Program-made: the position numbers and the translations under genes
Origin: Paramecium tetraurelia
Lineage: Eukaryota > Ciliophora > Oligohymenophorea > Peniculida > Parameciidae
NCBI RefSeq assembly: GCF_000165425.1
Contig: NW_001799462.1
Span: 62,001 to 126,000, forward strand
Reading direction: 5' to 3'
Length of the DNA: 64,000 bases
Notes under the pieces: model-generated
Databases searched by the model: none
What the model saw: the letters and a program-made list of their open reading frames with translations, nothing else
Told to the model about the DNA's origin: nothing
In this document: piece by piece, positions 34,194-64,000 of the stretch
How positions within the stretch are numbered: the first letter of the stretch is position 1
Layout of the letters: each line of letters opens with the position of its first letter

Positions 34194-37100
34194 ATGATTT
34201 TAAGTTTATTGATTTTATAACAATACTTCCGATACACAAATACGAAGTGCAGTATTAAATTTACAATTTTAAGCTACTCTGAATGACGAGCACCATTTTG
34301 AATTGTCAATAGGGGAACGATTTGACTTAAACATGAATGACAATTTTATTGGTTCCAATTTGAGATTTTCCTTGGTGGGATCTCATAGCCGACAATTCAC
34401 AGTCTAACAACGCTTGCATTTTGTTGCAATACAACCCCTCATGGAAGATTATGTCATCATCAAATAATGGGGAGAACTATTAGCCTTATTAAGAGGAACT
34501 CAGCAACAATATTACATCCAATATGGAATGTGTGATTTTCAATAAGCCCCTGCTTTTGAAAACATAATTCAGCTATTGCCTCGAGGAAATTGCGTTGATC
34601 TTATCTAAGACACCCTTTCTTCGTTTGTAGTTTTATGTGTAGAATAAACTCTATATTATTTGCAATATGTCTAAGTGGATGGACAAATCCAAGAATTCCA
34701 GTATTAGATGAAGTAAAAACCAAAGAAGTTCATGATCAACATGGTAAATGGAGTCGTAATAGTCATCCAAGTGGCAGATGAGTGCATTATAGATACCTAC
34801 TACCAACAAAAGGCAGGAATGCAATTAAATGCATAAACATTATCATAATTGACGATGCAGCAAGTCGAAAACTTCTCCATCAATGATATTACTGTGAAAG
34901 CCGATTAGATTATTATTGCACATCAAATTAGTCACATGATCTATTTGACAATTCAAATTTAGAATGACTAACCTATTTTTACCCTAGTAAAATTGGGGAG
35001 ATTCTAGTTTGACCTCCTGAAAATTAGTGCTTACTTAGATAACTATCTAAATCTTATAGTCGTTGCCCTTATACCTGACAACAGATTGTACTTTATAGAA
35101 ACGAACAAACAATATTAATTAGATTCCTAAATCAATCTCAAAAAAGCTAATTTACAAGCATCTTCAACTTATTGTTCTATTCATGATGGAAAAAGCTTAA
35201 TTATTTATAAATTCAGTGATGGCTTAAAAACTTTAATGTTTTAAGAAGATCTTGATCTTATTTAATACATATTTAATCCAGATTTGAATGATTTGATAAT
35301 TGTTTAAGAAAGATAAATTAGTAGATTTATTTTATCGGATGGTTATTTAATTTTGATACCACCTAAAGAGATTATCAAGACTCCAGTGGAATTTTCGGTT
35401 GTGGCTAGTAGTGATTTAATGGAATGTGAAGCGAGAGTTTCTTATATTGTAACGAGCAGTGTCAATTCACAATTGCTTAAGCCTTATTCTTATCCTAATC
35501 CATATCCCAATATTATATTCTTTCCAAAATTCCCCTCCATTTATAGTTTGAATTAGGTTTCAATTTCAGGGCCAAATCAGAAAATGCTTGTAACTGTAAA
35601 AGAGAACGATTGGCAATTAATTAACATTATCACAGATTATAAAAAAGTTATACCAATTTCAGGATTGAATGAGAAACGATTAAAACTAGCAAGCATCAAC
35701 GTTGAAATTAATAAGCTGATTCCTACAAAGATCCACTTTATATTGCAATATTATCAAAACCAATAATTATATACTGAATTCTTATCGTGTGAATTCAACA
35801 AACAACAATTGAAGATTAACTGTGATAAAGAATACATAATAGATCTTGATAATGTCATAACCCAAGATTAAATATTTTATAGTTATGACCTTGAAGATAA
35901 TGAAGTATTCATCTATGTTGTAAATAAAAATGAAGTCATCATATACAAATGGTTTGTCAATCAATTGATTTTATAGAATAGAGTATAGTTAGCTAATGAG
36001 AGCAAGTAGCATATTTAGTCGTCGATCTCCTAGATAATTTAGGTGAATAATCTCTTGGTTATTCTGAGGGGGGAGGTTGTCTATCTAATTTAAATATTTG
36101 GAGATGATTAATTTAGAATAGATGAGGCATTTTTATAACAAAAGAACTATTTGACTGAGTTTAAACCTAGTTAAGTGAAAGTAAGTCAAATTTGGAATCT
36201 GATTTTTATTGTTAATGGAGGTGATATACTTGTGATCCAGTGTTATGAGATTTGCGATTTGGTGAATAAAATAGTGATATAGAATGCCATGAGTTTGTAG
36301 ATTTAGATTCAAATGGAGAAGGTATTGATTGTGTTGGCTGAGATTGAATCTGAATTGTCTTTAATGGAGTACCTGATAAAGGATCCTCATTATATAGTGT
36401 ATCAAAAGAAATTGTAAACTTATCACTTTTGGCTTTAAAAATAGATGTTGAATAATTATTAGGATGATGAATTTTATGTGTTTGCTTATAGTCCAGTGTT
36501 GAAACAACGAGTTATTTTGATATATAAGGTGTTTGTTGAATTGAGGGATTCCTTATTGACTATGATCAATGTAGGTGAGGATAACTAGGAGTCCTTGTGC
36601 TCAGTCAGTGGGATAAATCAAAAATTAATGTACATTCACATGGACAAATCAGATTTAATCTATTTACTAACAAATGATTTACGATCAACAATCAATGTTG
36701 ATAATAAATCAGATAGCTTGTTTATTCACTAATTGCAAGTGGAATCCTCTTTTTTCAATATCGATTATCCTCTCCAATAGAAATATCATTAGACCATTAA
36801 GTTCGTAGATTTAAAAACAATCATCTATAAGAATGTTGATCAAATTGAATTTAAAATAACAGAAGACATCTAAATACCCATAGACAACTCATTCTTCACT
36901 GGATTAATTACTAATTTAAGGGCTGAGAATGCACATTTGGATATTCAGAAATCTGTTCAATTGACTGAGAACAAACGATCCTTTAAATCAGATGTTATTA
37001 ATACTTGTCAAATTGATGAGATCACTGTGATCCTCACTCATAAAACCATTGAATTTATGTACTCTAATTTCCAAGACTATTTTGAATCCTTAGATATAAC

Positions 37101-38353
37101 CGATTTAAAGGCTGAACTTGGGAATGTGTTTTGCAGTTCTCACATCACCAAATTGATCGCTTTCAGGTATCTGAATATTACTGGTTAGTACATACAATTC
37201 ATCTAATGTACTTAACAGAAGTGTTCCAAACAAGGGAACCCTTAGTTGATGAAGGAGGATGAATACATTTTCTCATTGATGATTATCAATTCTACTTTGA
37301 TCACACTTAGCAAAGATACTAAATACAATTAAGCTTTGCTAAATGTCTATGATATCAAAAGGAACGAATTCTAGATTTCACTCTACCAAACTGAAAAGAT
37401 CGATAAGCAAAGAGCAAATCAGGACTTCAATATCAAGTACATCAGCATGCAATCCTACTAGGTGAATGGAATAATGATTTACAAACTATTTCTCACTGAA
37501 ATGAGTAATGGTCTATTGTATGTTGATATGGCATAAGAGAAGTATATGTAAATCAAATCCAATGTGATCAATCTCAACTTGCAAACTCTGTTGTAAAGCA
37601 ATGGGTTATTTGAAGTTGATGACTAAATCTATATAAGCACGTTGTCCACCTAAGATCCAAAAGACTTTCACATAGAGGGCTACACTGAATTTTATCTCCT
37701 TATAATCACAGCCAATTCCCTTCACTATGGATTGATTGTGCAATTCAAAGGGTCCAAATTATCTGAGACTTCTATCGCCTATCTGCTTCATACTCATTAA
37801 TTGTGGAATGTGGTAACCTTCTCTCAGATTAAGTAATCCTATTTGGCACTTGGATACATTGTGCCTGATAAGCAAGAATTGATGGTAGCCATCTACAAAA
37901 TACCAGCTAATATATCTACTAATTTGAAGTCCAGTCCTGTTTTGGTTCACGGAGCAATCAATATTCAACTAGACCGCAATCTAAATTAATTGATATTCTT
38001 ACTTGAAAATGAGGGATAGGATGTCCTCCTTTATTTTAAAGATAAGGATCCAAACATAATATATTAGGCCAAAATTTACAATAGTTCTTATCTGATTATC
38101 AATAGTAGTGTGAAAAATCATGAATTCACTTTGGTGGCTAGCAATTACTATTATGAGAATTCAATACAAATAGTAATTTTGAATTAGGTAAAGAAGGGGG
38201 GATTTGGCGTCGTAGTAAGATATTGATTATAAATTGTAGATGGTTCTTTTGATACTGGTTGGTTGCATCATAGTATTGGGTCTGCTGGCTTACTTGTTTT
38301 TTAGGATTCGCTCTAAGGACCAAGTAGTTAATACCATTACTTTGTTAGAATGA
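34194..38353 (+). CDS. Surface-array gene U: giant secreted/type I membrane protein, 1,370 aa
   Basis: Three exons: 34194-34251 (58 nt), 34274-38214, 38240-38353; introns 22 and 25 nt; exact multiple of three. Exon 1 encodes a signal peptide (MILSLLILQQYFRYTNTKC) and the first intron follows directly. The ectodomain of about 1,300 residues is beta-strand-rich, with many alternating hydrophobic/polar stretches and scattered Cys (for example CTQQKCSKQGN). The last intron lies immediately before a membrane helix (MVLLILVGCIIVLGLLAYLF), followed by a short tail RIRSKDQVVNTITLLE. No named domain was recognised; the strand pattern could be a beta-propeller or a series of beta-sandwich repeats. The ATG at 34033 upstream opens only a 55-codon frame and is not used. 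Gene V follows on the same strand with an identical exon layout. Confidence 0.82.
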
Positions 38354-38451
38354 ATTATTATATATATATACACACAAGAAATAAATGATTTATTTAAATC
38401 GATGACAACATAGTTCTAATAATGAGGGATGCTGATAAAATTATTATTATA

Positions 38452-41400
38452 ATGTTAAATTATTTGCTCCTGTTTGAATTAATAGTACAATCAATTTAAC
38501 TTAAATGCAGTAACTGATTGAATATCATTAGAGTCAATCAAATTACGCTCTATTGTTCCACTTTCGAAAGAATTGAAAAAGATTTAGGCCAATTGGTTTA
38601 AGGTGAGAATGTTGAATATTCCTTGAATGGAATTAGCGAATATTTCGATATTGTGCAAATTATGAATCCCCTAACAGAAGATTACACCGTTGAAGATTTG
38701 AGTATGAGTTAATTAAGAATTAGCAAATGTAACCTTCATTGATTTACACACAATGAAGAATGGGTTTTATCATGAAAATTCAAGAGCTCTACTGTTTAAA
38801 AAGTATTCAATCTATCAAGTACGTTATCCGACCATTGATCAAGTGTTCTACTCAACAATTCAAAAGTGTTAGTTTGTAAGAGTCATCAGAAATAATGTCA
38901 TCCTATTGGCTTCTGACACTAGATTGTGGATAGCAAAAAATAATGAATATTACTTTGTCGATGGCTAGATCTTAGATATCGAGGTTGAAAATGGTTTCAT
39001 ATTAGTAACTACTTCAAAAAAAGTTGTGATTCTCTATTATGATTATACCCTCAAAGACACTGGCACAGTCATTGATTCACGTCTCTTAAACAGTCTACTA
39101 GACACATACAACAACTATTCAATCATCTAAACCAAGTATGCTTTGAACGATCTCCTCCTATTGGATTCAACCAAAGGAGTAATTGCACTAAGAGTCAAAT
39201 CCATAAATGTATTCGAGTTCGATTCCATCTACTCAAGTCCATTAGAAGCCAATTACTACTCCTTTTCAGTACTCAAAGATCTCAATTCTTACATCTTAGC
39301 CATATCTTTTAATACAAACTAATTGATCGTATATAATCGGCACTAAATCGATCTACAATAATGGTCTATTCAAGATCAAGCTCTCCAGAAAACTAGGATG
39401 GAATTCATTGGAGAATTTGGCAGATAGCAATTCCTCTGCCTGTTTAATTCAACTTCTCTTTTGATACATCAAATCAATCCTTCCTATATAATCAAGACTA
39501 TCACCTTCGAAAGTCCCATGATCGTTACATTCAATGCTTACAAGAGTGAGATCTATTTGGTTCAAGAAACCCAACAACAATCCTTTTTTATTTCCACTGG
39601 ATTGCTTATCATGAAACTCAATAATCAAGCCAATTATGAATTATAAAGTTTATTATTAATCGCAACTGAATTAAATCAATGTGCAGTAACCATCAATTAT
39701 GTCATTTACAATTATTTGGATAACAAACTGTATAAGAAGAACAATCTATAACATCAAATCAAACAACTAATAAATTACCCAACTGATCCTTAAGTACCTA
39801 TTTTTTAAGAAATAGGAGTCTCTGGATCGAACATCAAGGCTCAAATTGAACTCCAGGACGAGAGCATTTCTTTGAAGCTTGGATACATGGAGGATGTCAA
39901 AATCAAAGGAATTGTCTGGTCAGATCTAAATGATCAACCCAATGATTCGGTCTATGTTGACATCTGCGAAGTAGACCAATATGTTTACTACTTGGTCCAA
40001 TCCAAAACACTCAAAGCCACCTTATATCAATGTTCTATCAGTAATCCATACAATGAATTGAACTGCTAAAAAGTTCATTAGTTTTATCCCAATAGAATTC
40101 TGAGCAAGGATTCCTTTCAATGGATCCATGACAATTATGTCATCTTTGGTTACATCTCAAAGTTCCAACACACTTTGGAACTTTACAAATTGAGTCAATC
40201 CATTGTCTAAGATATGTTCACTGTAGCTACAAGTCTAAAGGATGAGTAATCTGAAATAACGTCATTTACGTTATCCAAAACTCATGTATTTGTTGTTTAA
40301 TCAAGAAAATAATAAATAGATATCATATCAATAGTCTCTCAACAAGTAATTGATACCATAACAACATTTGATGTGCCCTCTTATCATTTCAATCCTAAGA
40401 CTGTTTAAATCCAATCGAATCTGTTGATCATTACTGGCAATCAGAATATCATAATTGGCTATTTTTTTAATTCCTTCAGATTATTGGATTGCATAACATT
40501 CTCAGATAGTGAGTCCCTCGCAGTTGGAGTAACTAATTATTCATTCTTTGTTGCTATAGATTACGGTTACAAACAAGAAATTAGAGAATATAGTACAAGG
40601 ATGTGGAAAATTAATCTACTAAAAATCATACCTTTATTTCATTACATTTTACACAATCCTTTTCAGATACTCTCTCAAATGAATTTAGTTCTTCTTAAAG
40701 CCTACACTCCAGTATTGTAATAAACTGTGTTATTAATCTATCAGCCTGAAGTTGAGTTGAGAGAGTGCCTAGTTACTAGTGCTCCTTTGGGTTGGTATGC
40801 AGAAAATGAATTGAACTTGGGAGTCACAGCCTTTCATTAATCTGGACTATTGATCCACGCAGGATCTTAGAAGTATTTTAAGAATTTCTTTGTGGCTAAG
40901 GACTTTTAGGCTGTAATAACTTCTAAATATGATTCAAATTACATTCACAGAAAGGAACTGAATATATCCTATCTTACAATAGATTCTCCCGGGGTCATTG
41001 AGTAAGTGTAAAATGTAACGTTTCTTAATTTGATGACTAATATTGAGGCTGTTTAAATTCGTGGTGAATTGTATTTGGAATCTAAGATAGTACAAATACC
41101 AAATGATTGGTTTAAGGGGTTGGTGATTGATTTTAAAATAGAATGCTAACAATGCAATGATTAAATAATACTGACACCGAAGGTTCATTAGATTTCAAAT
41201 GTTCACCATTATGAGGATATATTAGGTTATTGTTAATTAAACGAGACTCTCTAAGTGATTCTTACAGATACCAGTCTCATTTTTGTAGATCATCAGCATT
41301 ATGTGAAACATCAGCGTTTCTTCTTTGATTTTGAAAATTCATATACTCCATAGAACATCTGGTGCAGAGACACTATCATACTAATAACAGGGAGTGCTGA

Positions 41401-42568
41401 TGTATTTTGGACTTCGTTCATAGCAATGGTGATTAGGGAGGGAGATTCCTTTAGGTTGGTGGATTAGCCAGTGGTTATTAAAATATTTAAAAAGATATTG
41501 TAACTTGAGATTCTAGAACATTTCAATTTTATTCTTTTATAAGCAAATGATGAGGATGACCAATCAAATTTATGCACATGGCATATAAATTACGCTTCTC
41601 CCAATTTCCTGAGTTTCTCCAAGATGTCATGCATTGATAAGTCAAAACATCCAAACTTTTTGGTGAGGAGCTTTATCACCTATTCATTTGGAAACTTGGT
41701 AAGAGTGTTTATGAATGAATTAAATTTTGGGATCTATGTGTAAGATTTCCAATACTAAAACGATTTCATAAGGTCTTTGATTATTCTTAATGATGTGATT
41801 AGAATATCTCCCAAGAGCAATCTGGAAGCTTTGTTGGGCGAGAAAATAAACGAAGGGATTACGTATCATAAAATTTTAAAGTGTGGAGACGAGGCGAATA
41901 AGAATTACTAAATTTTCAATGTGATTCTGTTGACGAGAGAAATTGCTCATTTAATGATGATTGTTTAGTTTGAAGATGAATTATTTAAGGAAATCATAAT
42001 AACCAGATTGATTCAGAGGTATTCAGACTTTAAATTGATGTTTCAATCCTCAGTTGCTAAAGATTACTTAGCACTGGCTTACAAGAAAGAATCCACTCAT
42101 TAGTACTCCATTTGCTTATACAAATTAGATACTAAGTCTGATATCATCTTGTAATTTGGAGGAATTGAGATCGTAGAATCCCATAACTAATTCTTCTCCC
42201 TTCTCTATGATGAGAATGACCAACTATTACTTCAATTGTAATTATCCAACAAAAATTTGTCCCTGTATAAAGTTGAAGAATTTGCAACACTCACTTTCTT
42301 AGAAGAAGCTCACGAATAACAATTGGTGTTGACAGCTAGCAATCTAGTTTCGTCAGCCAGCATGATTGTCCAAGCGTACGAAATTGTACAGACATCTTCA
42401 ATGACGTAAGAATTTATGCTATGTATTAGGTACTGGATCTTACTTATACTTTTACTTCTCGCAATTACGATTCTGTCTTTAATGTTTTTTGTTATTTATT
42501 GGAAAAACCGGTAGAAGAAATAGAGAAAGAAAATGTCACTACAACAATAATCATTAATACTTAAATGA
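38452..42568 (+). CDS. Surface-array gene V: giant secreted/type I membrane protein, 1,348 aa
   Basis: Exons 38452-38509 (58 nt), 38534-38701, 38724-42405, 42430-42568; introns 24, 22, 24 nt; multiple of three. The signal peptide MLNYLLLFELIVQSIQLKC is on a 58-nt exon, as in U. The long ectodomain includes NDWFKGLVIDFKIEC then QQCND near residue 870, a motif shared in modified form by other array members. The last intron precedes the membrane helix (YWILLILLLLAITILSLMFF) and a basic tail (NRQKKQRKKMS). The first intron seems to end in GAG. The stop is 10 bp from the stop of convergent gene B. Same architecture and intron positions as U identify the two as tandem duplicates despite low sequence similarity. 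Cell-surface adhesion or receptor roles are possible but unproven. Confidence 0.82.
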
Positions 42569-42578
42569 GTTATATAAG

Positions 42579-45500
42579 TCATATGATTTATTCTACGTAA
42601 GGTTCATACCCTTTCAAATTTAGTCCGTTTTTATAGGGATCAAAGGGATTCTATCCATTATCAAATATCCCCTATTCCTACATTTCTCCAAACTTCTGGA
42701 TCTGCTCTTCCAAGATCTTATCCCCAGGCAAATTCAATTTGTTTTCGAAGGATGAATCAATTAAGAACTCCGTATTCAGCAACACCGACTTAACTATGTC
42801 CTTTTTCTACTTCCCCACTTCTGGCGGGAAGATCTCCTAAGGCGAGTAAGGATTGAAACTGAAAGCCTTCATCTTCATTAGCTTTTGTAGTTACCCAATC
42901 AGAATGGAGAATACACTCTTTTCTTTACCAATCATCTTTCCTTTAATTGTGTTTATCCACAATCTGCAAATTCGATTATTAATGTACGGACAATCCAGTG
43001 AAAATAGAAACATATTCAATGATTGTATATAAACCTCTCCTTCTTCCTCCAGTATGTCTCTGGCGAATCTCTTGTACGCATAAACTATTTAAGTCATGTT
43101 CCTGTGACATAAACACAAGGGAGGAAGAGTCTCTAATTCTATCAGCAAAGCTGGTCTACGGGATCTTTTGGCAGAACTAATAGTTAAATGAGGAATGATC
43201 TCTCCCTTTATCTTTGCAGCCAAACTCGCAAATCCCCCTCTTTTGCATCTCACATCCCCTCGATTTATTGCTATCTCTTATTCTATGATCCCACCCTTCA
43301 ATGGAAGATCGAAGGTCCCCTATTAAATGATGTGGGAAAATGGGATCTCAACAAATCCACAACTCACTTTTTACACCACACCATTCTCCAAATAGTAGCT
43401 AATCAATTCAAATAGCAAAATTAAATGTAAATCGTTGTGCTTTTTCTCACAATTCAAGAAAAAACCATTACTCCTATTCCGAGATGGGAATTCCCAAATA
43501 TCCTCATTTTCCTCATTGTACTTAGCCTTCACAATTACAGTATTCTCTACGAACTCCTTATAAAACTTATCGTATATTCCCACCACAACTTCTCTCCTGA
43601 AACACGATTTCTTATCCTCTGGTGATGGTATTCCTTCGCCAGACAAAATCTTGACTTTGTAGACATTCCATGCCTTGCCTTTTTGCTCAACTTAAAATTT
43701 CCCCAATACATCAGGCTTAAATCGAAAAGAAGAACTGGGTGGGTTTGCTTTGATCGAGAAGGGTCTTATATAATTAAACGGCATTTTTTAATAAAAGATT
43801 CGTTGTGCTCTTAGTGAATTCTCGTAGTAACCTTTCATCTAATATTTGATTTAGCAATTACTCGAAATAGCAACTCATTCAATCTATACTCAATCAAGGG
43901 GTGTTAATGAATCAAATAAAAAAAATCCTCCAAATTTATATAACCACTTCTCTCTCTATCCAATGTTTAATAAATGAAAATCACGTCCTCAAATTTCACA
44001 TTCAAATTCACCTTCTCGAACAACTACCTAATTTTACTCTATTTTAACATTACTTTAATTATTGCATATTAACAACTTCAGTCTCAGCTTCCTTATATTA
44101 ATCGAACTCCTATTTCAATAGATATATCAATTTTTGAGAATTATAAAAGGTCTTTAATTGCAGCAATACAAACTTCTCAAATCCTCCATAATCATACGAC
44201 TTTTATTGCATCAACGTTTGACCCTTAATCAAAATGCCTAATTTCAGAAGTCCAAAGAACATTTGCTATTGTGTCAAATATTTCAATTGAATTGTGTCCA
44301 AATCCTCAAAATATTAATATATATCCATCTTTAATTGTTGAGTAGATATCTGTGCCTTCTCCTCCTGTTTTATTTATTATTCTTAGACAACCTCCTTTTG
44401 CTATGATTGCTTACTCAATAACCCTTATACTTGTTTCAAATCCAATTTGTCAGGGGAGTTCTGATTTGATTAGTCAGATGACTTGGGACTCATTATAATC
44501 TACGCTGACAATCTATTCAATGACTTCTTATTCAAATTCCTTTACAATTCGTACAATTCCTTAAACTATTCTTAATTTAAAGGCGAATTTATTTGATCAG
44601 TCTTGTCTGATATTGACAACTCGTGCTTCTTCTTCTTTATGAATTAATCAAACTCAAGATCTGTTATATTGAAACTTTTCTAATCAAGTTTACTTTCTTA
44701 GATCATCTAAAAAATGGCATTCGCACTCTCCTTGTCCACCTTGCCATTCGTTACCTAAATTGTCTATTTAATAAAATGATCCTTGCTTATTTTATTCTTT
44801 TCTTTAAAGTACTACTCCTGTAACTATGATAAATTATCAATTGAATTAAAGTACAATAACATCAATTAGAGTTAAAACTTCTGTATTTTGGCAGTTTATT
44901 ATAATCTTAAGGTTTTTTGATTCTCTATGATTTTGAGAGCGTCTGTTAGCAATTTATTGTAAGCCACAACCTCCTCGTCCTTCTCAACCTAAAGGAATAT
45001 CCTGATTGCATTCATCTCAATCTTAGACAGAGCTCTGTCTATATACATGGATAGGATATCAATGAAAATGTACAAAGCAACCTCTCCAGATGATGCCTGA
45101 TCCTAATCCTACAACAGCAAACTAAATGTCATCACAGAATCATCCTGAATTATTAGATTGACCAAAGATTAATACATTTCCAAATTCAAACTTGAGTCAA
45201 CTGCTTAAGGACTTTGTTAAAGCTTCTACTTAAATAGTTGAAAGTTCATCGAAGAGTTTCCATAGTCAGTCATCAAATTATGAACAACAGACATTTGCTT
45301 TTCCTCAAATCCCCATTCCCATTCCTTATTCAATAATTTCAGGGAATCAGCTGTAAATAGCTTTTCGGATTATGTGATTTCATCAAAAAAGATGTCAACC
45401 AATATACGATACTTGATGATTATGTGATTTAATGCCATAAACATTAATTCTGGTTAATCATCAACAATATGATAGCATAATTTCAAAGTGCTCAGTCCAT

Positions 45501-46212
45501 CTTTCACTTTGTAATATTTGTTTATTATTCTGTAATTATCTTCTCCAATTTCAATATTTACATATTTAAACGCCTATTCCAATTCACTCTAACGCAGAAG
45601 AAACTCCGCATTAGGATCATCCAACGCGGTGAATAAATCAAATGGGTGTATTTGCTTAAACATAAACTCAGTCTTCAACCACTCTATTAATTTCACTCTC
45701 AAATTCTCATCCTTCTTCTCCTACTCCTCCATCTCCAATTACTTTTGCGTCGATAGTTAAAATTTACTCTATCGATTATTGGAAATTGGGTCTGGAGTTG
45801 AATCAGGAGAAAAGGAAGTAAAAGATGTCTGACTTACCTTTTATTCCTTTCCTTTAAAAGCCCGATGAGCATTGTTTAAAATTGAAATTCTTTGTCTTTT
45901 CTTTTTTGCTAAATCTTTTTTATTCTAATCTTGCTCTTATTCTTGACCTGGCTACACAACTTATTAAGACACTACATCTTGTTCCTGTTACATTTCTTAA
46001 TGTTCAATTAGTTCTTCATTTTGCTCACCATCTTAATGGCCTTTCTCCAAAGATTGATTTCGCGAATGCTCTTTGCTTAGAATTTCATTAGACTTATTAT
46101 CCTTTGGAGAATTCAAATTTTAAGATGACCCTTAAGAATTTAGCTTTGATTTCGAGTTTGACTGGGACTTATTCAGATGATCTGGAGATTATACTTCAAT
46201 CTCTTGTTACAT
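42579..46212 (-). CDS. Gene B: intact paralogue of gene A, EF-hand-like / C2-like protein, 1,194 aa
   Basis: Exons 46212-44054, 44027-43862, 43838-42579; introns 26 and 23 nt at the same positions as in gene A; exact multiple of three. Low-complexity Gln/Glu N-terminus, then helical regions with EF-hand-like segments (IYQTLDRERSGYINLEDFF) and conserved blocks HNLMTDYGNSS and YDYGGFEKFV. A C2-like domain follows (YKVKILSGEGIPSPEDKK, EENEDIWEFPSRNRSNGFF). The C-terminus has FSFNPYSPQEIFPPEV and ends EPYVEQIM. It lacks the Lys-Asp-Asn repeat of A. Calcium-regulated binding to membranes or cytoskeleton would fit EF-hand plus C2-like parts, but the canonical Ca-ligand residues are not obvious, so this is inference. 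It lies within the surface array, 29 bp downstream of gene W, with no room for a long promoter. Confidence 0.78.
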
Positions 46213-46241
46213 AATTTTATATATATATATATTTAAGAAAA

Positions 46242-49200
46242 TCAAACTTCTGTTAACAATTTCTATTTCCCTTACCTTCTTCTTTTCTTTTGGCAATATA
46301 TTATGACGGATATCCCCAAGATCACAAACACCACCACAATCACCAATATTATCCATACTTTAAAATGAGAAGGCTCAGGTTCAATCAATTCAATGTTCAA
46401 TCTTAAATTTGTTATAGCTTCTTGTTATGAATTCTTCAATAGAGTTTAAACATCTTCTTAGACTGAATCCATTTCAATGCAAAGTTAAGTGGATCTTCTC
46501 AAAATATGGTGTTCCAATTTGTCTTTGTTTTCTGCCGAACTCAATACATGTAACTACCCCTTATGCTAATAAACAAAGGATTAAACAGTTTTTTGATCTT
46601 AAAGGTTCTACGACTTTACATAGGCAATAGCTGACAAGGGTCCAGTTTTGTTAGTATCATCATTCAAATCATAAAACAATAATTCATGATTCTTTTCGGA
46701 CTAATAAACTAAAGCAAGTATATTTTCCCTCAGGAGTTAACTTTGGTATTCATTATTCAAACTCCAACTACCATATTACTGGTAGCTATTCTTATACTTA
46801 AAAATAGAGAGACTACACAACTCATTTGTTGAACAATCAACCTTATATTCATAGGCATATGAAATAGAATTATTAAAAGTTATAACAATTAAATTTTCAT
46901 TCATTACCAATCCAGTGCATTTGAAATCAAGAGGAATAAACATGCCTTATCCTTTTATACTAGCTGCTAAGTTAAATGTTTAGAAAAAATTCTTTTAAGT
47001 AGTTTAAGCAACATCATAAGCGATTAATTCAAATGAAGCGGATTCGCCTATGCAATAAAAATAATAAACATAATGCTTAATATGTTGAATCTCAATTGAC
47101 TATGGATATTAAAAGGGAAAAACTCTTAAAATAAGTTTAAATTCATTAAAATTTGTGGGATCATCTTTGGTATCATAAGCTATTACATAATTCAATATCC
47201 AAATAAAGAATCTATCCTAGTTTTAAAATGCTTTTTTGATGTAATAATTAAAAGTAATTGATCCAGTTAGCAATGAAAATTTAGAGTCTTTGTATTATAT
47301 TATTTTAACATGATACTATTGATTTTAGGTAGCTTAAACATAAATAAGATCTTTTTGGATATAAAGTATATTAATGAATGAGTATTGATTATCTAATTCG
47401 AATTCTGTAGTTTTAAAATCTGCTTTAGAAACTAAAACAATCTTATTCTTAAACAATTAAATCAAATTTTGATCATCAAATTGCATAATAGATTCACTAT
47501 TTTATAGAGAATCTTCTTATTTTACCAAAGTCTTTTATAATTTGACATCTCCACTTGGTTACTTTAAATCTATATCAAAGGCTTAACCACTATACCAAGA
47601 TTATCCTATATTAAAGCAATGAGCATTATCCCCATCTTTGACATATGTAAAATTCATTTCTTTCTCTGTACTGAATAAATCTACTCCTCGATTTATTAAT
47701 TAAATAGGAACCTCTTCAATGGTGGAGTAATAATCAGTATTAGAAATCTTTCCTTTTAATTTAATACCTTTATTGTAGACTTACTATTTTAATTAAGTAT
47801 TTATGGAAGTTCTTACGAAATAATTGCCGTCTATAAAATATATATAGAATTTTTATGAATTCGCTTCAGTCTCAGTAATGAAAACAAAATTATTTGAAGA
47901 TGATATTTGAGCAGATTGAGTATCTAAAATCATGAATTATGAGTTTAGACTTGTTTCATTAGCTTTGTAAATTAAAATTGCCTTCTTGGCAGTCTTCTCA
48001 TGAGTTCCTATTACGTATAGTTGTTCATTAAAATAATTGCTATCAAATAATGTAATATCGTTTTATGCATGATGATATAAACTATGACTTCTTTAAGAAT
48101 AAATATCCCCAATATTTTGAATATTATATGTGAGAATTCCATACAAATCCTATTATTTTTTCAAAATAGAAAAATGACCATTAGTAATTGCAACACTAAT
48201 AGGTGCTTGGCTCTCTAGTTGTATAAACCAGATTAATGTTAACTTTTGATATTAAATGCTATATAAAGACAATTTAACATTATCGTAGGCAAATAAAAGG
48301 TCCTACTTATACGGTGATGTAAAAATCTAATTCACATCCTTCAATCCTACTGAAAGCTTTTTCCATCCTTGTGTATTGATGCTATAAATTTCAACATCCT
48401 TCTCGATTAATATAAACAAATTGCTTCCATCAGTTGAAATAGTTTTTCCTTAAGTTTGTAACTCAATAATTTAAAATTCTTAGAATTATTTTTAATCAAA
48501 AGGTAAAAAATTGACTTTCACTTATTTATCATTCAAATTGGCAAAATAAAGTCCGTCTTTACTTATCCACCAAATTTGTTTTTGAGAATCTTCCAGCTTT
48601 GGAAAATTTATTTTTTGAAACAAAATATTGCACCCAAAACCCTATTCTGGATGATTTTCACACTTGTAACCTTCTATTTCGAGGTTCTATTTTTGTTGAA
48701 TCAAGTACGCGTATTTTGAATCAAGATCTGAAATCGCCTTTCTGTAAATAACATCCGTTGAGTCTAAATTAGTCTGAATATCATCTTTCTTGTTTTTCAC
48801 CTCTATTTTTAATATGTCGCTATTATAAAATTCAAATTTGAGATTTGGTCCCGTACATGCAGGTTAGAATTTAGCTGTTTATTCATCCAAATTCACTCCG
48901 TATGCAAATAAGGCTGATGATGATTGAGTCAAGTACATTTTTAATGTGTCTATTGGAACTACTCTATAGTAAATAGTAACATAGCACTTAGGCAAATTAT
49001 ATTCTTCTGCAATTTGAACCTAACTATACTCTTCTTAAAGTTAATCGGATCTAAATCTTAAATAATAATCACTATTAATTGTGTAGCGATAGATGTCAGT
49101 ATCATCCAAGGCTAAGATGCTGTCTAAATTTGGATTTGAAATTAGTTTATACTTTGATTAATCCAATAACATTGAATAAAGCTTTTCAAGTTTCTAGTTA

Positions 49201-50207: not shown

Positions 50208-50773
50208 ATTTATATTTTTGATGTAATATGGAAATTAATTTTGTATATATATATAATTATCTTAAGTTTAACGAGTAATTTAATTTTATGGAATTTATGC
50301 TTAATCGTCATCAAATCCATAACTTCACTACAAAACTAGATAGTATTAAACAACGCAATAATGAAAAAAAAATTATTTCAATATACTATAACACTCATTC
50401 TTTTGATCCAAATTGTATATTTAAAGTCTCTAGCACAAACATCTAATCATTTGACAAAGATAAAAAAGTAATATTCTCCTTATTAAATCTAAATATTATT
50501 ATGCTCCTTCAATAATGATCAGCCTATTTCTTTTCGATGAAATAATTGCAATTATTATTACTTCCTTTAATATGTCCTAGTAAATGATTTCAGGGATTAT
50601 AATGTCAACCAACATTCATTATTTTCAACAATGGAATAAAACAAGAAATACATTTTATATTTTTATGAAATTATTTACAACATTATTAAACAATTGGATA
50701 AGATAGTGAATTACAAATTCTGAACCAAATTAATTAATTAATGATAATTAATTTACTATATATTTATAATTGA
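50208..50773. other. Intergenic spacer between genes W and X
   Basis: About 570 bp, very AT-rich, no gene found. It must hold the promoter of W (minus strand) and the 3' end of X. Confidence 0.5.
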
Positions 50774-53700: not shown

Positions 53701-54751
53701 TTTTGATATCAACGCTTTATCGCTCTTTTAAATTCAAATTCAAAATTTATAAAGATTTTTAATTCTATATAATAATATTGTTTTAGGACAAACTCACTCT
53801 GCTAGTTTGTTTAAAGTTCAAGTCTTCTTATTAAGTCCAAGCTGAAATCTAACGAAGGTATATATCTTTTTCTGAAATTATGACTAATTACTAATACTTC
53901 CAAGAATAATCATAAGCATAAGGAAGAAATGTTGGAGTTTACAAAAATTCATACAATTCCCATTGTTTTTATTAGATCATGTATTTGAGACATATAAATT
54001 GTCCATTCTAATTCAAAATAGTAATTTATTAGTTGGTATGAAATTTAAAATCTAAAATTAGAAGATCAATATTCTCATCCTTAGTTATTTTTTTAACTTG
54101 CTCTTTATCTAGAGTACTCAATAAGACTAATTCATTATCCTGTAATTGATATAACTCTAATGAATAATATAAATTTCTTAAAACTAAGTTATCTAATTAA
54201 TCGAGTTTCCTTTGTTATCTTTAAGAATTTATAATTGTCATGAATTTCACTTAGTCTTTATTAAGTAGAGCAAAATAATCACCTTCCACATTGTTACATT
54301 CAATAACATACAATTAATTTACTTAGAGTGCATCGTAACAAATTGAAGCGTCTTTAAGATTTACTTATTAAACGACATCAATTTCTGGTGTGTTTTCAAA
54401 CATTACAGAATTATATTCTATAAAATACTTATTTTGTGCTTTGCTCAAAATAGTTATTTAATTTGTTATATCTAGATATCCTGAACTTTTATATAATTTT
54501 TAAGCTATCACCTCTCTTGGTTCTTAAAAATTATATTGACTTTATTGTATTAAACTCAATGGAGCAGAGATAGAGAAAAATTCTGATAACGGAGAGAGAG
54601 TGAATTATTTCTTATTTTTATCTCGAAAAATGTCACCAAGCTTGATATCAATTCTTTCTCCAGGCGTAGCTGTAATATAGAATGTATTGTTAGCCAATAC
54701 GGAACATCCGTAAGACATTTAGGTTAGCGTCAATAGAATAATGAACATCAT
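50774..54751 (-). CDS. Surface-array gene X: giant secreted/type I membrane protein, 1,325 aa
   Basis: Single open frame, ATG 54751 (a second ATG follows directly) to TGA 50776-50774; exact multiple of three, no introns. Signal peptide MMFIILLTLTQMSYGC, then TPGERIDIKLGDIFRDKNKK and a long beta-rich ectodomain containing QSWYSGQALDIDLKQPSGD. A Pro/Asp-rich stalk (NMPPNPPGPDPDSD) precedes the membrane helix (PLWATLTIIGCVILLGGIGI) and a short tail YCKKKKVSDDQYETIP. Sister of W. The stalk is specific to X. The tail Tyr in QYETIP might be a sorting or phosphorylation site; that is speculation. Preceded by the longest spacer of the window. Confidence 0.83.
51812..52168. repeat. High-identity tract shared with 47250-47610 (copy in gene X)
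   Basis: Partner of the tract in gene W, same orientation, 4.56 kb apart. The boundaries fall inside coding sequence: on the left similarity ends at the TAAAAGTAATTGATC block, on the right it fades after the block encoding QSWYSGQA. Confidence 0.8.
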
Positions 54752-55903
54752 TTAATTATTTTAAAAATATGAGTTTTGGAATAAATTATATTAAATTTCT
54801 GACAAGTTTTGAGTCATTAAATAATATCGATTACCTCATTCATAATTTATGATAAAATTAATAATCTTGAAATATATACATTTCAATTAAATTGTTACAT
54901 CATCGACCTAAGATGTTTGTTTAAACCTGATTATTCTTACACTACTCATTAATTAATGCATAATCAATAATTTGGTTGGTTTAAAAATCTCCTATTGAAA
55001 TACTTTTTAGATGTAATTTTGTGCATTTTATTATACAATTATTCTAAAACTTGTTCGAAGAATGATTCTGACTAAAATACATTACATAATTTTTGTTTAT
55101 TCAACTTTTTAATATTCGAATATTTCAATGTTGTTATTATGTTTCTTTTTCTTAATCATATAATCAAATTTTATGGTTACTGACCTTAGGTACAACCCTT
55201 AAGATATAAATTACTTAAAATGCAGGAATTTATCAACTCTTCAGCAAACCATTTTTATAATAATAAATAAAACAGTAATTTTGAGATAAATTATTTAGAG
55301 AATAGATAAGACACTATAAATACCATAAGACAGCATTATAAATGTTGATCAAATCTATTTCAAATAGGGAATTGAACAAATATAATGGTAATTATTGCTT
55401 TATTTAAATTATTTTCTTTTATACTAAACATTCGTTTAAACCCAAAAGGTAAAACAAAATAAAATAATATAAAATAATGTTTTTGAGAGGGACTATAAAT
55501 ATTGAATTTTAATTAATTATTATCAAATGTTATGAAATAGATATTAAAATCTTAAGAAAAATTAAAATTTATAAAAGTGTTGCCTATTAATAGGAAAACA
55601 TATCTTCATTCAGAAGGAATAGAGTGGTAGAAATCAGTCATGTAAACTATTTATTCATATTCGATATTTATTTATATAAAAACAGATTGATTATAATCGA
55701 TGACACGTATGAATACATCACAAATGATTCTTTGAAAGGCAAAATAATAATAAGCAATTAAACGAACGATACAAATAATAGTTTTATAAATATTAATTCA
55801 CAATGATTTTTGGAAATCTCAATTAAGTTGGAAAAAGTAAAAAATTGAATAACCTAAATGATATAAGTCATAAAATTTATAATAATATATTTTTAATAAA
55901 AAA
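54752..55903. other. Longest gene-free spacer (about 1.15 kb) between genes X and Y
   Basis: Extremely AT-rich. I found no frame with coding-like composition, no tRNA-like cloverleaf and no repeat. For a genome this compact the length is unusual; it contains the promoter of X and could hide a non-coding RNA or a decayed gene. Confidence 0.45.
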
Positions 55904-58900
55904 TCATTAAATGGCTTTATATGATCTTCTTCTCTTACGATGCTTGTTTATACATATATGGATTGACACACATATGATTATACCTGCTAGAAGTACTCCC
56001 AAAACAACTATCAAAAGTATAAAGAATAATTTCATTTCTTAATCAGGAGGCGGACATGGTATCAATGTTAGATTTATTCCCAATTACACTTATTTATAGG
56101 GATTCACTGCTATCAAACTCACTGTGTTATTCTTTAATTCTGATGCATTCTTTACAACAATTCTTGCATCTGAATCAATTGTGTAAATTTACAGACTTCT
56201 TTCATCATATGCATTTATCAATAATTAATACTTTCCAAATTGACTTTTCCTTAATACAAAATTGGAGGTTACCAGCAAATCATAATCAGATTATTTTAAT
56301 CCTGCTTTGCATATGCCTGCATTATTTCTTATATCACTATTCTAATCAATTTCATAGAGACAAAAGTAATTTTTGTTCTCATATTTAAACAATTACAATA
56401 GATAATCATCAACAACACTAATGGATCTCATTTTTAATATATTACCCAATTTCAAAAACACTTAGATTATCTGTATCCTAAAATTCCCTCTCTGATATTC
56501 AAGGAAGATTTAATAGCTTTCATTAATCTGATCAACTAAAATCAATTTGCAAGAGTTAATCCCCTCTTTAAAGATCTATATCTTTATGAATCTATTTTCT
56601 AAAGGCTCTACTAATTTTTCTTGGCGAAATGGTAATTCCAAATATTCATATTTTGAAATACTTGCCTGATCCTTCGTCAATATCATTTTTAATAAAATTA
56701 TACCAAAATGGAACTCAGCCAAAATCAAGCACCCTTCATTATCAGAGATTTTCATTACATCAAAAGAAGTCACATTAAAACTTTAATGAAAATAATCTTT
56801 ATTGATTATCAAGTCATATGGTTTTATAGAAAAATCTTTGTTATTAATTTCCAAAGAGTAAAAATATAGAGTTGGAAATTCTGTCAAACTCTCTGTTAAG
56901 ATTATTTGTACATTATTTAGGAAGGACATTTCTTTGATGATTCTTCTGTCATAAAACTCCATTTTCCCCATAAATTTGCAATTTTACTTTTCTTAATCCT
57001 TCCAACAATAATAATACTTCAATATTGGTTTTTAAGCTGCTACATTTTCATACAGAACAACTAGGATATAATCTGTTAATAAAAACAATTTTGTTGCAAC
57101 ATAATTATTTTATTCACTTTACAATTCAATTTGATTTTCTATTTCACCAAAATTATTGATAAATTGCAAATATTGTTTCGTTCCTGTTAATTCAGATAAA
57201 ATTAGAAGAAAATTTTCATTGAAATTGATGAATTGCTATATTGATTTTGATTGGATCTTTTTATTGGATTTTTAGAATTGATTCATCAAGTAGATTTAAC
57301 CACTGTCATTATCAGTCGTACACAAAATACAAGATAATTTATATTAAATTCTTTGACCCTAGATCCAATTGTCCTTTATTTTGATCATCGAAACTTCTTA
57401 GCATTCCTCAAACTCAAAATCTATGTTCTCCTTTATCCATTGCATCTCCAATTACATGTCTACAACCGTAATCTCCTTAGAGTACACCCTCTTTAAACTA
57501 TAATAGTCATTCCACTCTTATTAAGACAAAATCAAAACGGATTAAAAGTGTGTAGGATCAGTCAAATAATTGATATAGAGTCTGGGTTACTCAAAATAAA
57601 GATAACTATACACTTATCTCTTATATATAAACTAAATGACTGTATCGTAAATCCCTGCAACACAATAATTCAATTCATCTTCAAAGTAGTCGAAAGTATC
57701 AATGACTGTCAATAGGGAGTTCCTTTGATATTCATTAATTTAGTAAACCAAAATTACAGTAGTTTAAGTTTGCACAGAATATGCAGTAACCAAAATTAAG
57801 TTCTTTTAAGGGTTGGAAGCCAATTAAAGCTATTTTGGCAATTAGTAGTAGTATAAGGGGAGTTTCCTTAAGAGAGTTACTGAGTTCAAATTGTGAATAA
57901 GATATTGTAAAATACCCTGTTCTGTAACTGTTTTAAAGACAACCACGAGAGTAGATCTGAATATTGATAAGAGTAATTGGACATTTTGTTGGTCGGTCAC
58001 TTGGATCTGAGAGATGACATTAAATTCATTGATATAATGTCCTATTATGATTATGTTATTGCATTTGATAAATATAAGATTCTTGTTAAAGGTATTACTA
58101 ATGTAGACCTTTTAGGCATTATTTAGATTTGATATTGTATCAATTTAAGTTTTCTTAGATAATGAGTATACTTGGATCTCATTCATGCCACTAATAAGTA
58201 CGAATACAAATTGAGAACTGATTTCAAAATCAGTGATTTAAGTTTTCTCATTTTGCAAAGAAGTTTTGATTTGAAAAATTTGAATGATCTTGGTATCACC
58301 GACTCTATATATTGTGATTACATGATTATTCTAGGTCTTTATGCCTATGTATGAATCATACATTCCTACTTCTGTCCACGCTATATTGTCTTCAACCAAT
58401 TTTATTAGTGGGTAGAAGGTGATCTTTTATGAACACTTCTGTTCTAATTCATTCATTTAACACACATAAATGAAAGCACTCAAGTTTTCAATTTACACCA
58501 AGTATTAATTAAGACCCAAATTGTTATTGATGAGACTAAATATTACATTTTTCTAATCAAATTAGCTGATTCCTGTAATAGTCATAGGAGATAATGAGAG
58601 AAATTTCATATCTATCTTCTTCTTCTTTTAATCATTAGATACTGTTATTTGTTATTGAACATTTGGGCCATTAGTAATTCTGGGCCAAGTGTAGTAGGAT
58701 TTGGGATAGGGAGGATAGTAAAATATGCTTTATTTATAAAAAGTACTTTAAAAGTTTGTATGTATCTTTGCATCTAATTTGTCATAAATAGTTAGAACAA
58801 TATTTACATAACAACTAGTACATTAGTTGTCTACTAATTTGAAATACTATTAATTTTCCTATTTTTAAATTTGTTTTTGAAACATCAAAATACCAGAACT

Positions 58901-60116
58901 AATTTCATAGAATTCTGCTTTATTTCTATGAAATAAAATATAGAGGTCGAAATTTGGATTTGCAATGAAGATTTCTTTTTAAATCTGGAATTTATCAACT
59001 AGTTCATCATCATTTAAAATAATAAGTTCTGTATCTGAATTAATCAGGTAATATTTTGGAGTTGTTTGCACATTGCAAATGCCCAAAGTAAAGTCGACCT
59101 TCTCAAATGTTCTTACCACATTATCATATCTCCCATTTTTTAGGACTCTCAAACTCATCTAATTTTTAGATACAAATCCGAACACTATAAGTTCCTCTTA
59201 CTTTCTGATTGAAAAACTATAGTATTCTGTTATATATAATGAGGTAGTTATTAATTTTGCCTATGTGAAATTGCCTTTATTATCCTGGATTAACTTGATT
59301 GGCCCCATTTTATAATCTAAAACAAACACATTATTCGAATAAACTTGAACGTCAATTACAGAGAAATATTTGAGTTCATTTTAAAATAGTTCCGAGAGTT
59401 TTTTTTTATCCAAATAGTAAGGGGTTTCTATAATTTAGTAGGAATCAATGAGGAAGACGTTAATGATTGATTGTATGCTCATGGTTTCTTCTGTGTGTGC
59501 TGGAGTATAGATTAATAGATATGTGATTGATTTGTCTCTATAAATTGCCAAATTATAAGTGCTCCTTTGCTCCGTCAATTTTGAATGTGCATGTAAAATG
59601 GTTCCACTCTTATTAATAATTTATAGCAATATTTCATCATTATCTTGACAAACAACCACAAAATTATTTTAATCCAAATAATCGAAATCTGTACAAACAT
59701 GATAGAGTGGCAATTATCCAAATCCTTCATCATTTATTATGTATATATGAAGTCCTGAGGAGTCTCTTCCCAATAAACTATACTCATTCAACCAGAAGTC
59801 TCCTTTTCTATATGATCTAGCCTTGATTGTTTCTTGAATCTCTACAACTATGCTTGAATTTCATACAATAAGGAAAATTTTTCTAATCATAAATATCGTT
59901 CGGCTATTACAATTTGAAGTATGTCCCACTCCTATCTCCTTCCAATCTAAATTTTGTCATCTCTCCTTCAATTAATTCATCCTTTATTTCCCAATACATA
60001 TTTTCATATGTAGAAATACTGATTTCCAATTCACTTTTCAATATGTCTAATGGATTTCTAAAATAATTACTGCATGATTATATGTGTCTCAGGATTATTG
60101 AAATTAATAATAACAT
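55904..60116 (-). CDS. Surface-array gene Y: giant secreted/type I membrane protein, 1,395 aa
   Basis: Exons 60116-59867 and 59841-55904, one 25-nt intron; exact multiple of three. The preferred start gives a signal peptide MLLLISIILRHIQSC; an upstream in-frame ATG at 60158 would add 14 polar residues and is less likely for a secreted protein. The ectodomain is beta-rich with few Cys. A CPPPDQ stalk leads into the membrane helix (MKLFFILLIVVLGVLLAGII) and a basic tail with HRKRRRSYKAI. The intron position (about residue 84) differs from U and V, and overall similarity to the other members is low, so Y is a more distant relative defined mainly by architecture and position. Confidence 0.8.
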
Positions 60117-60656
60117 TAATAATTCTTAAATATTTGAAGAATGTAAATTTTTCTTCATATTAACATATAGAATTAATTTATTTTTATTACTAAAAGGCTT
60201 TCAATCAGAATTTATACAAGTTTCTTTTATGTTTTATGCAAATACCGAAAATGATATAAAAATATATTTTAAATATTGAGGGAGGGTTTCATCATCTTTA
60301 TAAGTGTGTGCACTCCAGCTAGTTGAGCCTGATTGAAAAGTAATCGAATTCTATCTTAAAATGAAGGTTCTTTAGGATTACTGATGATTCATAAAAAAAT
60401 TAAGAATAATAACAGTTCATATGCTATTTTAAAACTAAAAAGATTATACAAAAATAAGCTTGAAATTTTGAATTAAGATTCATTATTTTAAATAGTCTAA
60501 TTTCAGAGTATAAGTATATAATATTATATAGATGGATATTGAAATTATCAAGTTTGATAAATTATTACCTAAAATGATTGTTAAATAATCACCAAACCTG
60601 ATATATAATTAATTTGCAAATTATTTATTTGATTTATTAATAACTCAATGGGTTTT
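60117..60656. other. Intergenic spacer between genes Y and Z
   Basis: About 540 bp of AT-rich DNA without a recognisable gene; promoter of Y and 3' end of Z. Confidence 0.5.
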
Positions 60657-63600
60657 TCACCAAAACACATCTAGAACATTGTCCAAAAATGACTTCTCTT
60701 CCTCAATTTCTTCAGCTTTAAATTGTCTAAGCAATACTAAGCCTGTGTCTTAAGTGAAAGCATTAACGAGGGTAAGTGAAACAAATTATTGATTTAAATC
60801 ACCACCAACGTTATAGACATAAAGTTGATAAGTTGGATTCAAATAATATGTTTGTAACAAGTTCTCATTGATGTCAACATTTCTGATGATGTTAGCATAG
60901 AGTCTTGGCTAGAAATGATAAATAAAATAAATTTACGAAACCAATGTTCTTGGGAATATAGGCTAAGAAATCGTTAACTTGAGGATATCCATATTTGGAT
61001 TGGGTTCCTCCGACTAATTTAATCAAAGGTACTCCTAGGATTGGTTCTTTTGGTAACAAATAGGATGCTAACAATAATTAACTGTTATCAGTATATGCAA
61101 TGATAGCATAATCATTACCGACTGTGGCCTTATTCAATGCGGTCCAAGTGGAATATTGATTTAGGAGATAGATCACATTTTGGTAAGTCAAGGGGAGACC
61201 AGTAGAAACTGATTTGGCATCGAAGGTCAATAGAATACCATAATGAGCTGAGGTGTCAGTTGTGACGAGGACTCTGAGTTTGAGAGATTGTTCTGTTGAT
61301 GAGTATACGGGAGCTGACAATTCCAAGACTTAGTAGAATGAGCTGGATGATGAAACAAATTGACCTTGGTTGATGAATGTGTAAAGATTCAATGAAGTGT
61401 ACTTGGTTTACCATGTGATAACTCCGAAAGTGCTTATAGAGGCATCAACTGAATATAAGTTTTACTTGGCATCAACAATAAGGACTTTGAGGTAATTTGT
61501 AATTCCAACTTTGAAGGGAGCAATGTAGAAACTGCTGAAATAACTGGATTGATTTCCAAAGAAGGCTTTGTCAAATATTTGTTGTAAATCGAATGTGACT
61601 TATTGGGAACTAGCAGTCCATTTGTAAACATTGAGTGTTCCTTCATAGTTTCTGGGTCTTTGAGGATTAGAATTCAAAACGAAGACGTAATTTCCACTGA
61701 TAGCGAGTTAGGCAACAGTGAAGATTCCATCGATGGTTTGGATGGTTCCGAATTGATGGCATTCAAGTTATCCAGTAGTTGAGCATTTAGCAATGTGGAA
61801 TACCTTTTAGTTATTGAGTTGACAAGTGGCAAAGATGTAGACACCATCTTCAGTGGCAACAATGTGATCGCATGAATGGGATTAAGTGGTTGAAAGGGAG
61901 ATGGAGTAACTGGTTTCTTCTTTGTTTTCACTATCAGCAATCAAGACTCTGAGGGTTTGTTAGTTGGCTAGATAAATAGTTCTTTATCCTTTGTATGGGG
62001 CAGCGTCGATGATGTGATATCCATTGAAGGAACCTGAATCCATTTATTAGACAGTTTGAATTGGTTTGACATAAGAATCACATTGGTCGCAATCAATGTC
62101 TAAGGAGACAGCTTGTCCATCGAACCAATCGGAAACAAGGTCAATGTTTTATTCAGTTTGAGTAGCATTCAAGGGTCTGTAATCAAGAACATTCTGTTCA
62201 ATTCTTATGGTGATTTGAGTATTGATAAGGTTGATAACTTAATAATAGGTGATGGGTGTGATGTCATTGTAATTGTTGATTTGGAATTTGATAGTGTAGA
62301 CAGAAAAGTATGTAGATTAGTCATAATTTGGTTGGATTGTTAGAACAGGTTAGTCGAAATAGGAATATACTTTTTATAAGGTACCACTGTTAACATAGAA
62401 TACCATTTGACTTGATCCAGCTGTTGACATCATAATGGATGTACCATCAGCTATTTTACTGCCCAATGGAATGGCTTTGAGTAAGGAGTCTCTTAACAAC
62501 TTACCTGGGCCATAGACTAAGACAACAGTTTGAGCACTCTTACTATCATAAGCTCTAACAAAGAGCACACCAGTGTCTGAACAGAAATCAGTCTAAAGTG
62601 GAGTTTAGATTGTGTACCAGTACAATGGCACAGTTTTCATGAGATGGATGGAATTCAAATTCTAAAGATCGTATTCTTGAATCAGATTTTGAGTGGCTGA
62701 TTTTAATATAATGAAAAAGCTCTCTAATCCAACTGCCACATCTATTGATCCTTTGCTTAGAGTGATTACTTTGACAATTGTGAATTCAGCATGATAATCA
62801 GCAACAATAACATTATCGTCGTTGGTTATGAAGAGGAGGTAAGAATTGTGGACTCTGTTTCCGAAGATTCTTTAAGGATTCCATGAACCTGTGAATCCTC
62901 TGTATCTGAGCATGACTTCAGTTACTGAATATTCCAATTCAAATGGACTGTAAGTAGATCGTATATCGATTTGTTTTTTGTTTCCCAAAATAAAGTAGAA
63001 TTTATCTTTCAAGACAGTGACAGCTGTGATTTTATTAAGAGTCTCAGCTGGATATGAAATGCTATCGACAACACTGGTTCCATTAATACCACTAACTCTA
63101 ATGGTAGCCGAATAATCGTTGTCCAAAACAAGGTGGTAAATGTTGAAACCTTAATACCACCAAATGAAGTTGTTCATATTTAATTAGGTTGATACGTCGA
63201 AATTTTAATATTGCTTGCATTCTGATCTGGCTTTGAATTTGTCTCTGATGTAACATTGATAGATTGTTGTAGTCTTGTTTGTTGATTATAAGAGGAGAGC
63301 ATAACGTTCATCCTTTGCATCCAATACCAATACATCAGAATAAATCACTGAAGATGGATTTGGTAAACTAATAGATTCAAGAAGCATCTCTTGTAATTGA
63401 ACAATCTTGGCAGTCACTGTTGTGGCATCCTTTTGTGATAACAACTAAAGATAATTCAGATTTGGTCCAGAGGCAAGTGGATCAACATTGAATGGTGCAG
63501 GAATATCATACAAAAGACTTGGAAGTTACAATTCCTCTGTTGGTTAGACTGTATAATCTAAGGCATTGAACACTTTGAAGTTTATTGTCACCTTGCATTA

Positions 63601-64000
63601 GGTTGAAAATGAATCTGTGGCTACCAAAGTAAATGATTATAAAGATGATGTTGTTGTTGATGTGCTTGGGAATCTTAATAGACCATGTGTAAGTGAATAT
63701 CTTCTTGAATCTACTTAAGTGATGGAAATCAATTCAGTTTCATATGGATTAATGATGTATCCCTTGGCTCCTTCAATGACTTCCTTGTGGATGAAATCTT
63801 CATGTTCAGTACTGAACAAGTATGTGACACCCTTCTGTTAGATTATCAAAAATTATTATGAAATAACTAAGGTAGCTGGATAGGCTGCTGTGAATTCCAA
63901 AATGTATGTATTTACTGGTACCTTACCTTCAACAATTTGAATGTAATCATTGTACATGATGGCGATGACTTCCTTGACTGTTCCATCTTCTTGTAATAAG
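60657..64000 (-). CDS. Surface-array gene Z: large secreted protein, N-terminus outside window (1,104 aa visible)
   Basis: Open from the right edge to TGA 60659-60657 with one 28-nt intron (60936-60909); the visible part is an exact number of codons. It is beta-rich and has SDWFDGQAVSLDIDC with DQCDS, clearly related to the motif in V and W/X. Pairs of Cys recur (CDHIV...FATC, CSTTGQLECH). No membrane helix is visible at the C-terminus, which ends in an acidic segment (KAEEIEEEKSFLDNVL, DVFW). Codon choice differs sharply from its neighbours: ATC, TTC, GCC, ACC, AAG and GTC are frequent, the pattern of highly expressed Paramecium genes. It is probably an abundant secreted or peripherally attached surface component; the truncated N-terminus prevents a check for a signal peptide. 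Confidence 0.8.

Follow-up and report, generated by a model that had tools for sequence, protein, structure and literature searches.

A divergent family of giant proteins with receptor-like anatomy in the genome of Paramecium tetraurelia

Paramecium feeds, mates, and senses through surface contact, and to our knowledge few Paramecium surface recognition proteins are known. The six giant genes U to Z, which lie close together in the Paramecium tetraurelia genome, therefore raise the question of whether they form one family, how far that family extends, and what its proteins may do. The window analyzed here is the whole 64,000-nucleotide stretch from positions 62001 to 126000 of contig C184, within a genome of 69.07 Mb in 231 contigs. 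Under the ciliate code (table 6) the window contains 55 open reading frames (ORFs) of at least 200 amino acids (aa), some of them antisense, vs none under table 11. The code, the short introns of the gene models, and collinear duplicated contigs suggest that the genome is macronuclear.

Gene array and family census

The gene models, with introns of 22 to 28 nt, give proteins of 1321 to 1433 aa (Table 1), which agrees with the initial annotation that each of U to Z exceeds 1,000 residues. A seventh family gene, A7, lies immediately beyond the window edge. Near position 128455 of C184, A7 has a one-base frame change between HTETLL and NPYEPDLI without intron-like sequence, and its ohnolog on contig C79 is an open frame at this site. 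An unrelated gene lies between V and W; its open frame (44008 to 46356) overlaps the end of W, its true start is probably just past W, and a Pfam search with it returned no significant match. Beyond A7, at window-equivalent positions of about 71.7 to 77.0 kb, is a large gene with an open frame of 1772 aa, in which C2-like domains are repeated; it is labeled "ferlin-like" by eye only.

Table 1. Positions in the window of the array genes, the motif in V, and the W/X tract
Feature	Start	End	Strand	Description
Gene U	34194	38353	+	1370 aa; hydrophobic start; C-terminal membrane helix; tail YLFFRIRSKDQVVNTITLLE; two introns
Gene V	38452	42568	+	1356 aa; hydrophobic start; membrane helix; basic tail; two introns
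Motif WFKGLVIDF in V	41108	41134	+	G invariant across the alignment
Gene W	46242	50207	-	1321 aa; intron unnecessary; membrane helix; tail ends in KQKLLTEV
W/X tract, W side	47231	47720	-	covers WYSGQ
Gene X	50774	54751	-	1325 aa; intron unnecessary; YETI in tail
W/X tract, X side	51793	52282	-	89.4% identical to the W side
Gene Y	55904	60116	-	1395 aa; one intron; SYKAIQ tail common to Y and its C79 ohnolog
Gene Z	60657	64000	-	partial in window; start at window-equivalent 64986; 1433 aa

U to Z are mutually homologous. Profiles built with one clade left out still recovered that clade with E values of 1e-28 or better, and a single profile covers most of the length of each family member. The proposed homology is supported, as one family of giant secreted or single-pass proteins, and the family is larger than had been claimed. 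Searches of the genome with Y, X, Z, V, U, and the C32 member as queries located at least 40 family places on 18 contigs. These counts, which were merged by hand and include partial matches (for example, C174:20917, spanning 344 query residues), are lower bounds. Contig C184 holds seven plus four places and C79 five plus three; C166, C128, C174, C29, and C36 hold two each, and C25, C81, C219, C7, C30, C220, C167, C205, C43, C32, and C24 hold one each. An 872-aa protein at C79:73973-76588, with a hydrophobic start resembling that of the family and a marginal profile match (E value of 6e-6), was left out of the count and is perhaps a shortened relative.

Some members are fused. At C79:42-50.5 kb, a single open frame joins the end of one module to the module that follows, with neither a stop nor a signal-like stretch at the junction, and a helix and tail close the second module; a second frame with modules fused in the same way lies at C184:168-173 kb. 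The C79 protein would be very roughly 2,700 aa long, and additional modules near both loci may also be fused.

Most paralogues share only 13 to 42% identity because their duplication is old; V, for example, has its closest relative on C29, with 42% identity. A family tree of 24 rows, rooted at its midpoint and with good support for 17 of its 21 inner branches, separates three groups: C32 with the W/X clade, a U/V/Y group, and a Z/A7/giant group (94/97). The placement of U beside V has support of only 83/82, the branches of C32, U, and C81 are long, and five rows deviate in composition. The array has members from all three groups, which indicates that the spread of the family is old.

In line with the initial annotation, which assigned the proteins to no recognized family, sequence searches of Pfam, NCBIfam, and PDB with the scanned members gave no significant match. 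Single-query searches with Z, able to detect close relatives only, found no prokaryotic or viral relatives, and no literature description of the family was found among the titles and abstract openings considered. The family is real and large, has receptor-like anatomy, and is undescribed in the profile libraries and the literature searched; its function is putative.

Predicted anatomy of the proteins

The layout shared across the at least 40 places, as the sequences show, consists of a hydrophobic start and about 1250 strand-rich extracytoplasmic residues, in most cases followed by a single membrane helix and a short tail. One helix and a short tail had been described for five of the six proteins. 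This holds for U to Y, each of which has one strong C-terminal helix followed by 17 to 23 residues, but in Z no C-terminal membrane helix was found, even in a scan extended downstream of the gene. U, V, and Y also contain one or two internal stretches barely above the helix cutoff (1.65 to 1.97). The Cys content of U to Z is 0.9 to 1.6%.

The motif W-[FY]-x-G-x-x-x-D-[IF] had been noted in V, W, X, and Z. In its strict form it is present in V, W, and X (three of six) and missing from Z, and its G is invariant in all 23 aligned members, a subset of the family places that does not include A7. No equally good match was found in unrelated proteins of the window.

The beta-rich ectodomain of the initial annotation is supported. 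Propensities averaged over 23 members give 45% strand and 1% helix, and in single-sequence predictions the six array proteins have 5.8 to 6.9 strands per 100 aa vs 2.2 to 5.6 in seven other window ORFs, ranges that nearly touch. A mainly-beta outer region is thus a well-supported prediction. Three stretches of about 340 to 366 residues, with borders set by eye, contain 26, 28, and 24 strand segments; a seven-bladed beta-propeller has 28 strands. These counts suggest three putative propellers alternating with Ig-like domains. PDB profile searches returned nonsignificant rows only. For the first stretch, the best row was a Fab (E value of 0.31), six of the eight rows were Atg18 (0.77 to 1.2), and RB1CC1 also appeared; HIR2 was the sole row for its stretch (0.087); and for the third stretch, Plexin-A2 was best (0.052), with U2AF35 also present. 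Of these rows, only Atg18 and HIR2 are known to be propellers; neither the Fab nor the Plexin-A2 row is a propeller match. When the three putative propellers were compared with each other, no match was convincing, with hhalign probabilities of 5 to 10% in one comparison and 3 to 27% in another. A threefold internal repeat was weak by profile comparison, with one match being a mere overlap of two cuts.

Motifs of the YxxPhi and [DE]xxxL[LI] types bind AP adaptors in other eukaryotes. Such motifs occur in 8 of 14 family tails (U, X, Y, Y′, C205, C43, C29a, and C29b), vs 2.8 expected from shuffles, and are missing from V, W, C174b, C79f2, C32, and A7. No probability is attached to this excess because the tails are partly related (Y to Y′, C205 to C43) and some come from unspliced frames; in addition, the U motif adjoins the membrane, and the C29b helix call, from an unspliced frame, is weak. 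Three of the six W/X-clade tails carry DQRILL (C205), DEKVLL (C43), and DQRVLL (C29a), the X tail contains DDQYETI, and the Y and Y′ tails contain SYKAIQ.

A single membrane helix, a large lumenal region, and dileucine and Tyr tail motifs are also what would be expected of sortilin/VPS10-like cargo receptors of the endomembrane system, whose lumenal part would bind trichocyst, lysosome, or phagosome cargo while the tail recruits adaptors. The lumenal part of sortilins is a propeller. However, the sortilin domain PF15902 was not detected in any of the 23 scanned members or at any family place, whereas the same search matched 25 places elsewhere in the genome, several of which may be fragments belonging to a single gene. 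Z has no helix, and 40 places would be many for such a role. Ciliate lysosome-related organelles do use sortilin/VPS10 receptors (PMC9159632), and we regard this reading as possible but rather unlikely.

Ohnologous locus, selection, and gene conversion

The genes that flank the array on either side recur on C79 in the opposite order, and between them lie seven family genes on C184 vs three on C79 (A7′, Y′, and one more). No counterpart of the ferlin-like gene beside A7 was found in C79:70001-109500. Y and A7 are the two genes of the array for which the C79 locus has a clear ohnolog. Y and Y′ share 74% identity, which peaks in the middle, with a dN/dS of 0.10 (dS of 1.5). A7 and A7′ share 77 to 79% identity, with a dN/dS of 0.10 (dS of 1.5) in the N-terminal part and 0.14 to 0.15 (dS of 0.9) in the C-terminal part. 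These Nei-Gojobori ratios were obtained near saturation and are approximate; the V/C29b pair is saturated and gives no ratio. Nine flanking ORF pairs, chosen as sense-looking and including several pieces of one gene, share 75 to 98% identity with dN/dS of 0.013 to 0.20; many pairs that were antisense or shadow ORFs and gave odd ratios were excluded. The Y and A7 pairs fall inside this dN/dS range, and their identities are among the lowest. Rapid evolution of the family, as suggested initially, is thus not supported at the gene-wide level in the two ohnolog pairs (about 0.10 and about 0.14), though gene-wide averages can hide fast sites. Y/Y′ and A7/A7′ are under purifying selection, which indicates that these genes are functional.

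W and X share a tract of 490 bp in which dS is 0.25, vs 2.2 outside it, and which we interpret as a gene conversion. The tract includes the motif, and W and X are therefore not independent witnesses of it. The locus allows gene gain, loss, and conversion following a chromosome duplication to be compared side by side. Gene conversion and a large multigene family would also suit a further class of variable coat proteins for antigenic variation. However, the proteins are low in Cys and carry a membrane helix, purifying selection and retained ohnologs are seen, and the array lies at about 96 to 131 kb of a 213.6-kb contig, away from its ends, which makes a variable coat very improbable.

Putative role and comparison with known protein families

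The explanation that we favor, still tentatively, is that the family consists of surface or endosomal receptors or adhesins of the ciliate, with paralogues differing in ligand. Three beta-propellers with Ig/cadherin-like sandwiches between them, and twice this set in the fused members, would form a rigid surface that offers several sites for binding, and the likeliest job would be the binding of external or partner-cell ligands at the cell surface. The tails may carry adaptor-type sorting signals, in which case the proteins would cycle between the cell surface and either endosomes or a compartment related to lysosomes, and a helix-less member such as Z may act as a soluble partner or decoy. 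A bolder proposal, which we consider doubtful, is that the at least 40 triple-propeller/Ig modules, some doubled, with adaptor-binding tails constitute an undescribed receptor superfamily that serves as a main surface recognition set for food, partner, or predator and differs from both mtA and the GPI-anchored surface antigens (SAgs). Since the family is large and multilocus, has receptor-like anatomy, and shows purifying selection in two ohnolog pairs, silencing can test it directly.

Ectodomains with propeller and Ig-like domains and one membrane helix are found in CatSper auxiliary subunits, integrin alpha, and plexin/semaphorin. The predicted layout of the family would resemble that of these proteins, but Pfam and PDB searches gave no significant sequence match, and the three propellers per module are putative.

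Like the Paramecium SAgs, the proteins are of surface type and very large, and they belong to a multigene family. SAgs have a Cys periodicity and are mostly GPI anchored, with one group having two or more membrane domains with Cys repeats (PMC9788069). In contrast to these Cys-rich proteins, U to Z are poor in Cys, judged on content rather than periodicity, and the helix and following residues of U to Y appear unlike a terminal GPI signal. High dN/dS in the internal region is a further SAg feature; in the two pairs of the family, the ratios are gene-wide, at about 0.10 and 0.14.

Tetrahymena MTA/MTB and Paramecium mtA are also large ciliate membrane proteins, and mating or self-recognition agglutinins on cilia, an example offered by the initial annotation, would be consistent with giant, divergent, surface-type proteins and with the unequal gene content of the array at the ohnologous loci. 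However, a growth-factor-receptor (GFR) domain and five predicted membrane helices characterize MTA/MTB of Tetrahymena (PMC10901506), whereas U to Y have one strong C-terminal helix, none was found in Z, and Pfam detected no GFR/furin-like domain in 23 members at an E value of 0.1. With the low gene-wide dN/dS of the two pairs, an agglutinin role is unlikely. Sortilins resemble the family in their single pass, large lumenal part, and tail motifs and differ in their domain. By the features compared, the family is distinct from SAgs, MTA/MTB-type proteins, and sortilins.
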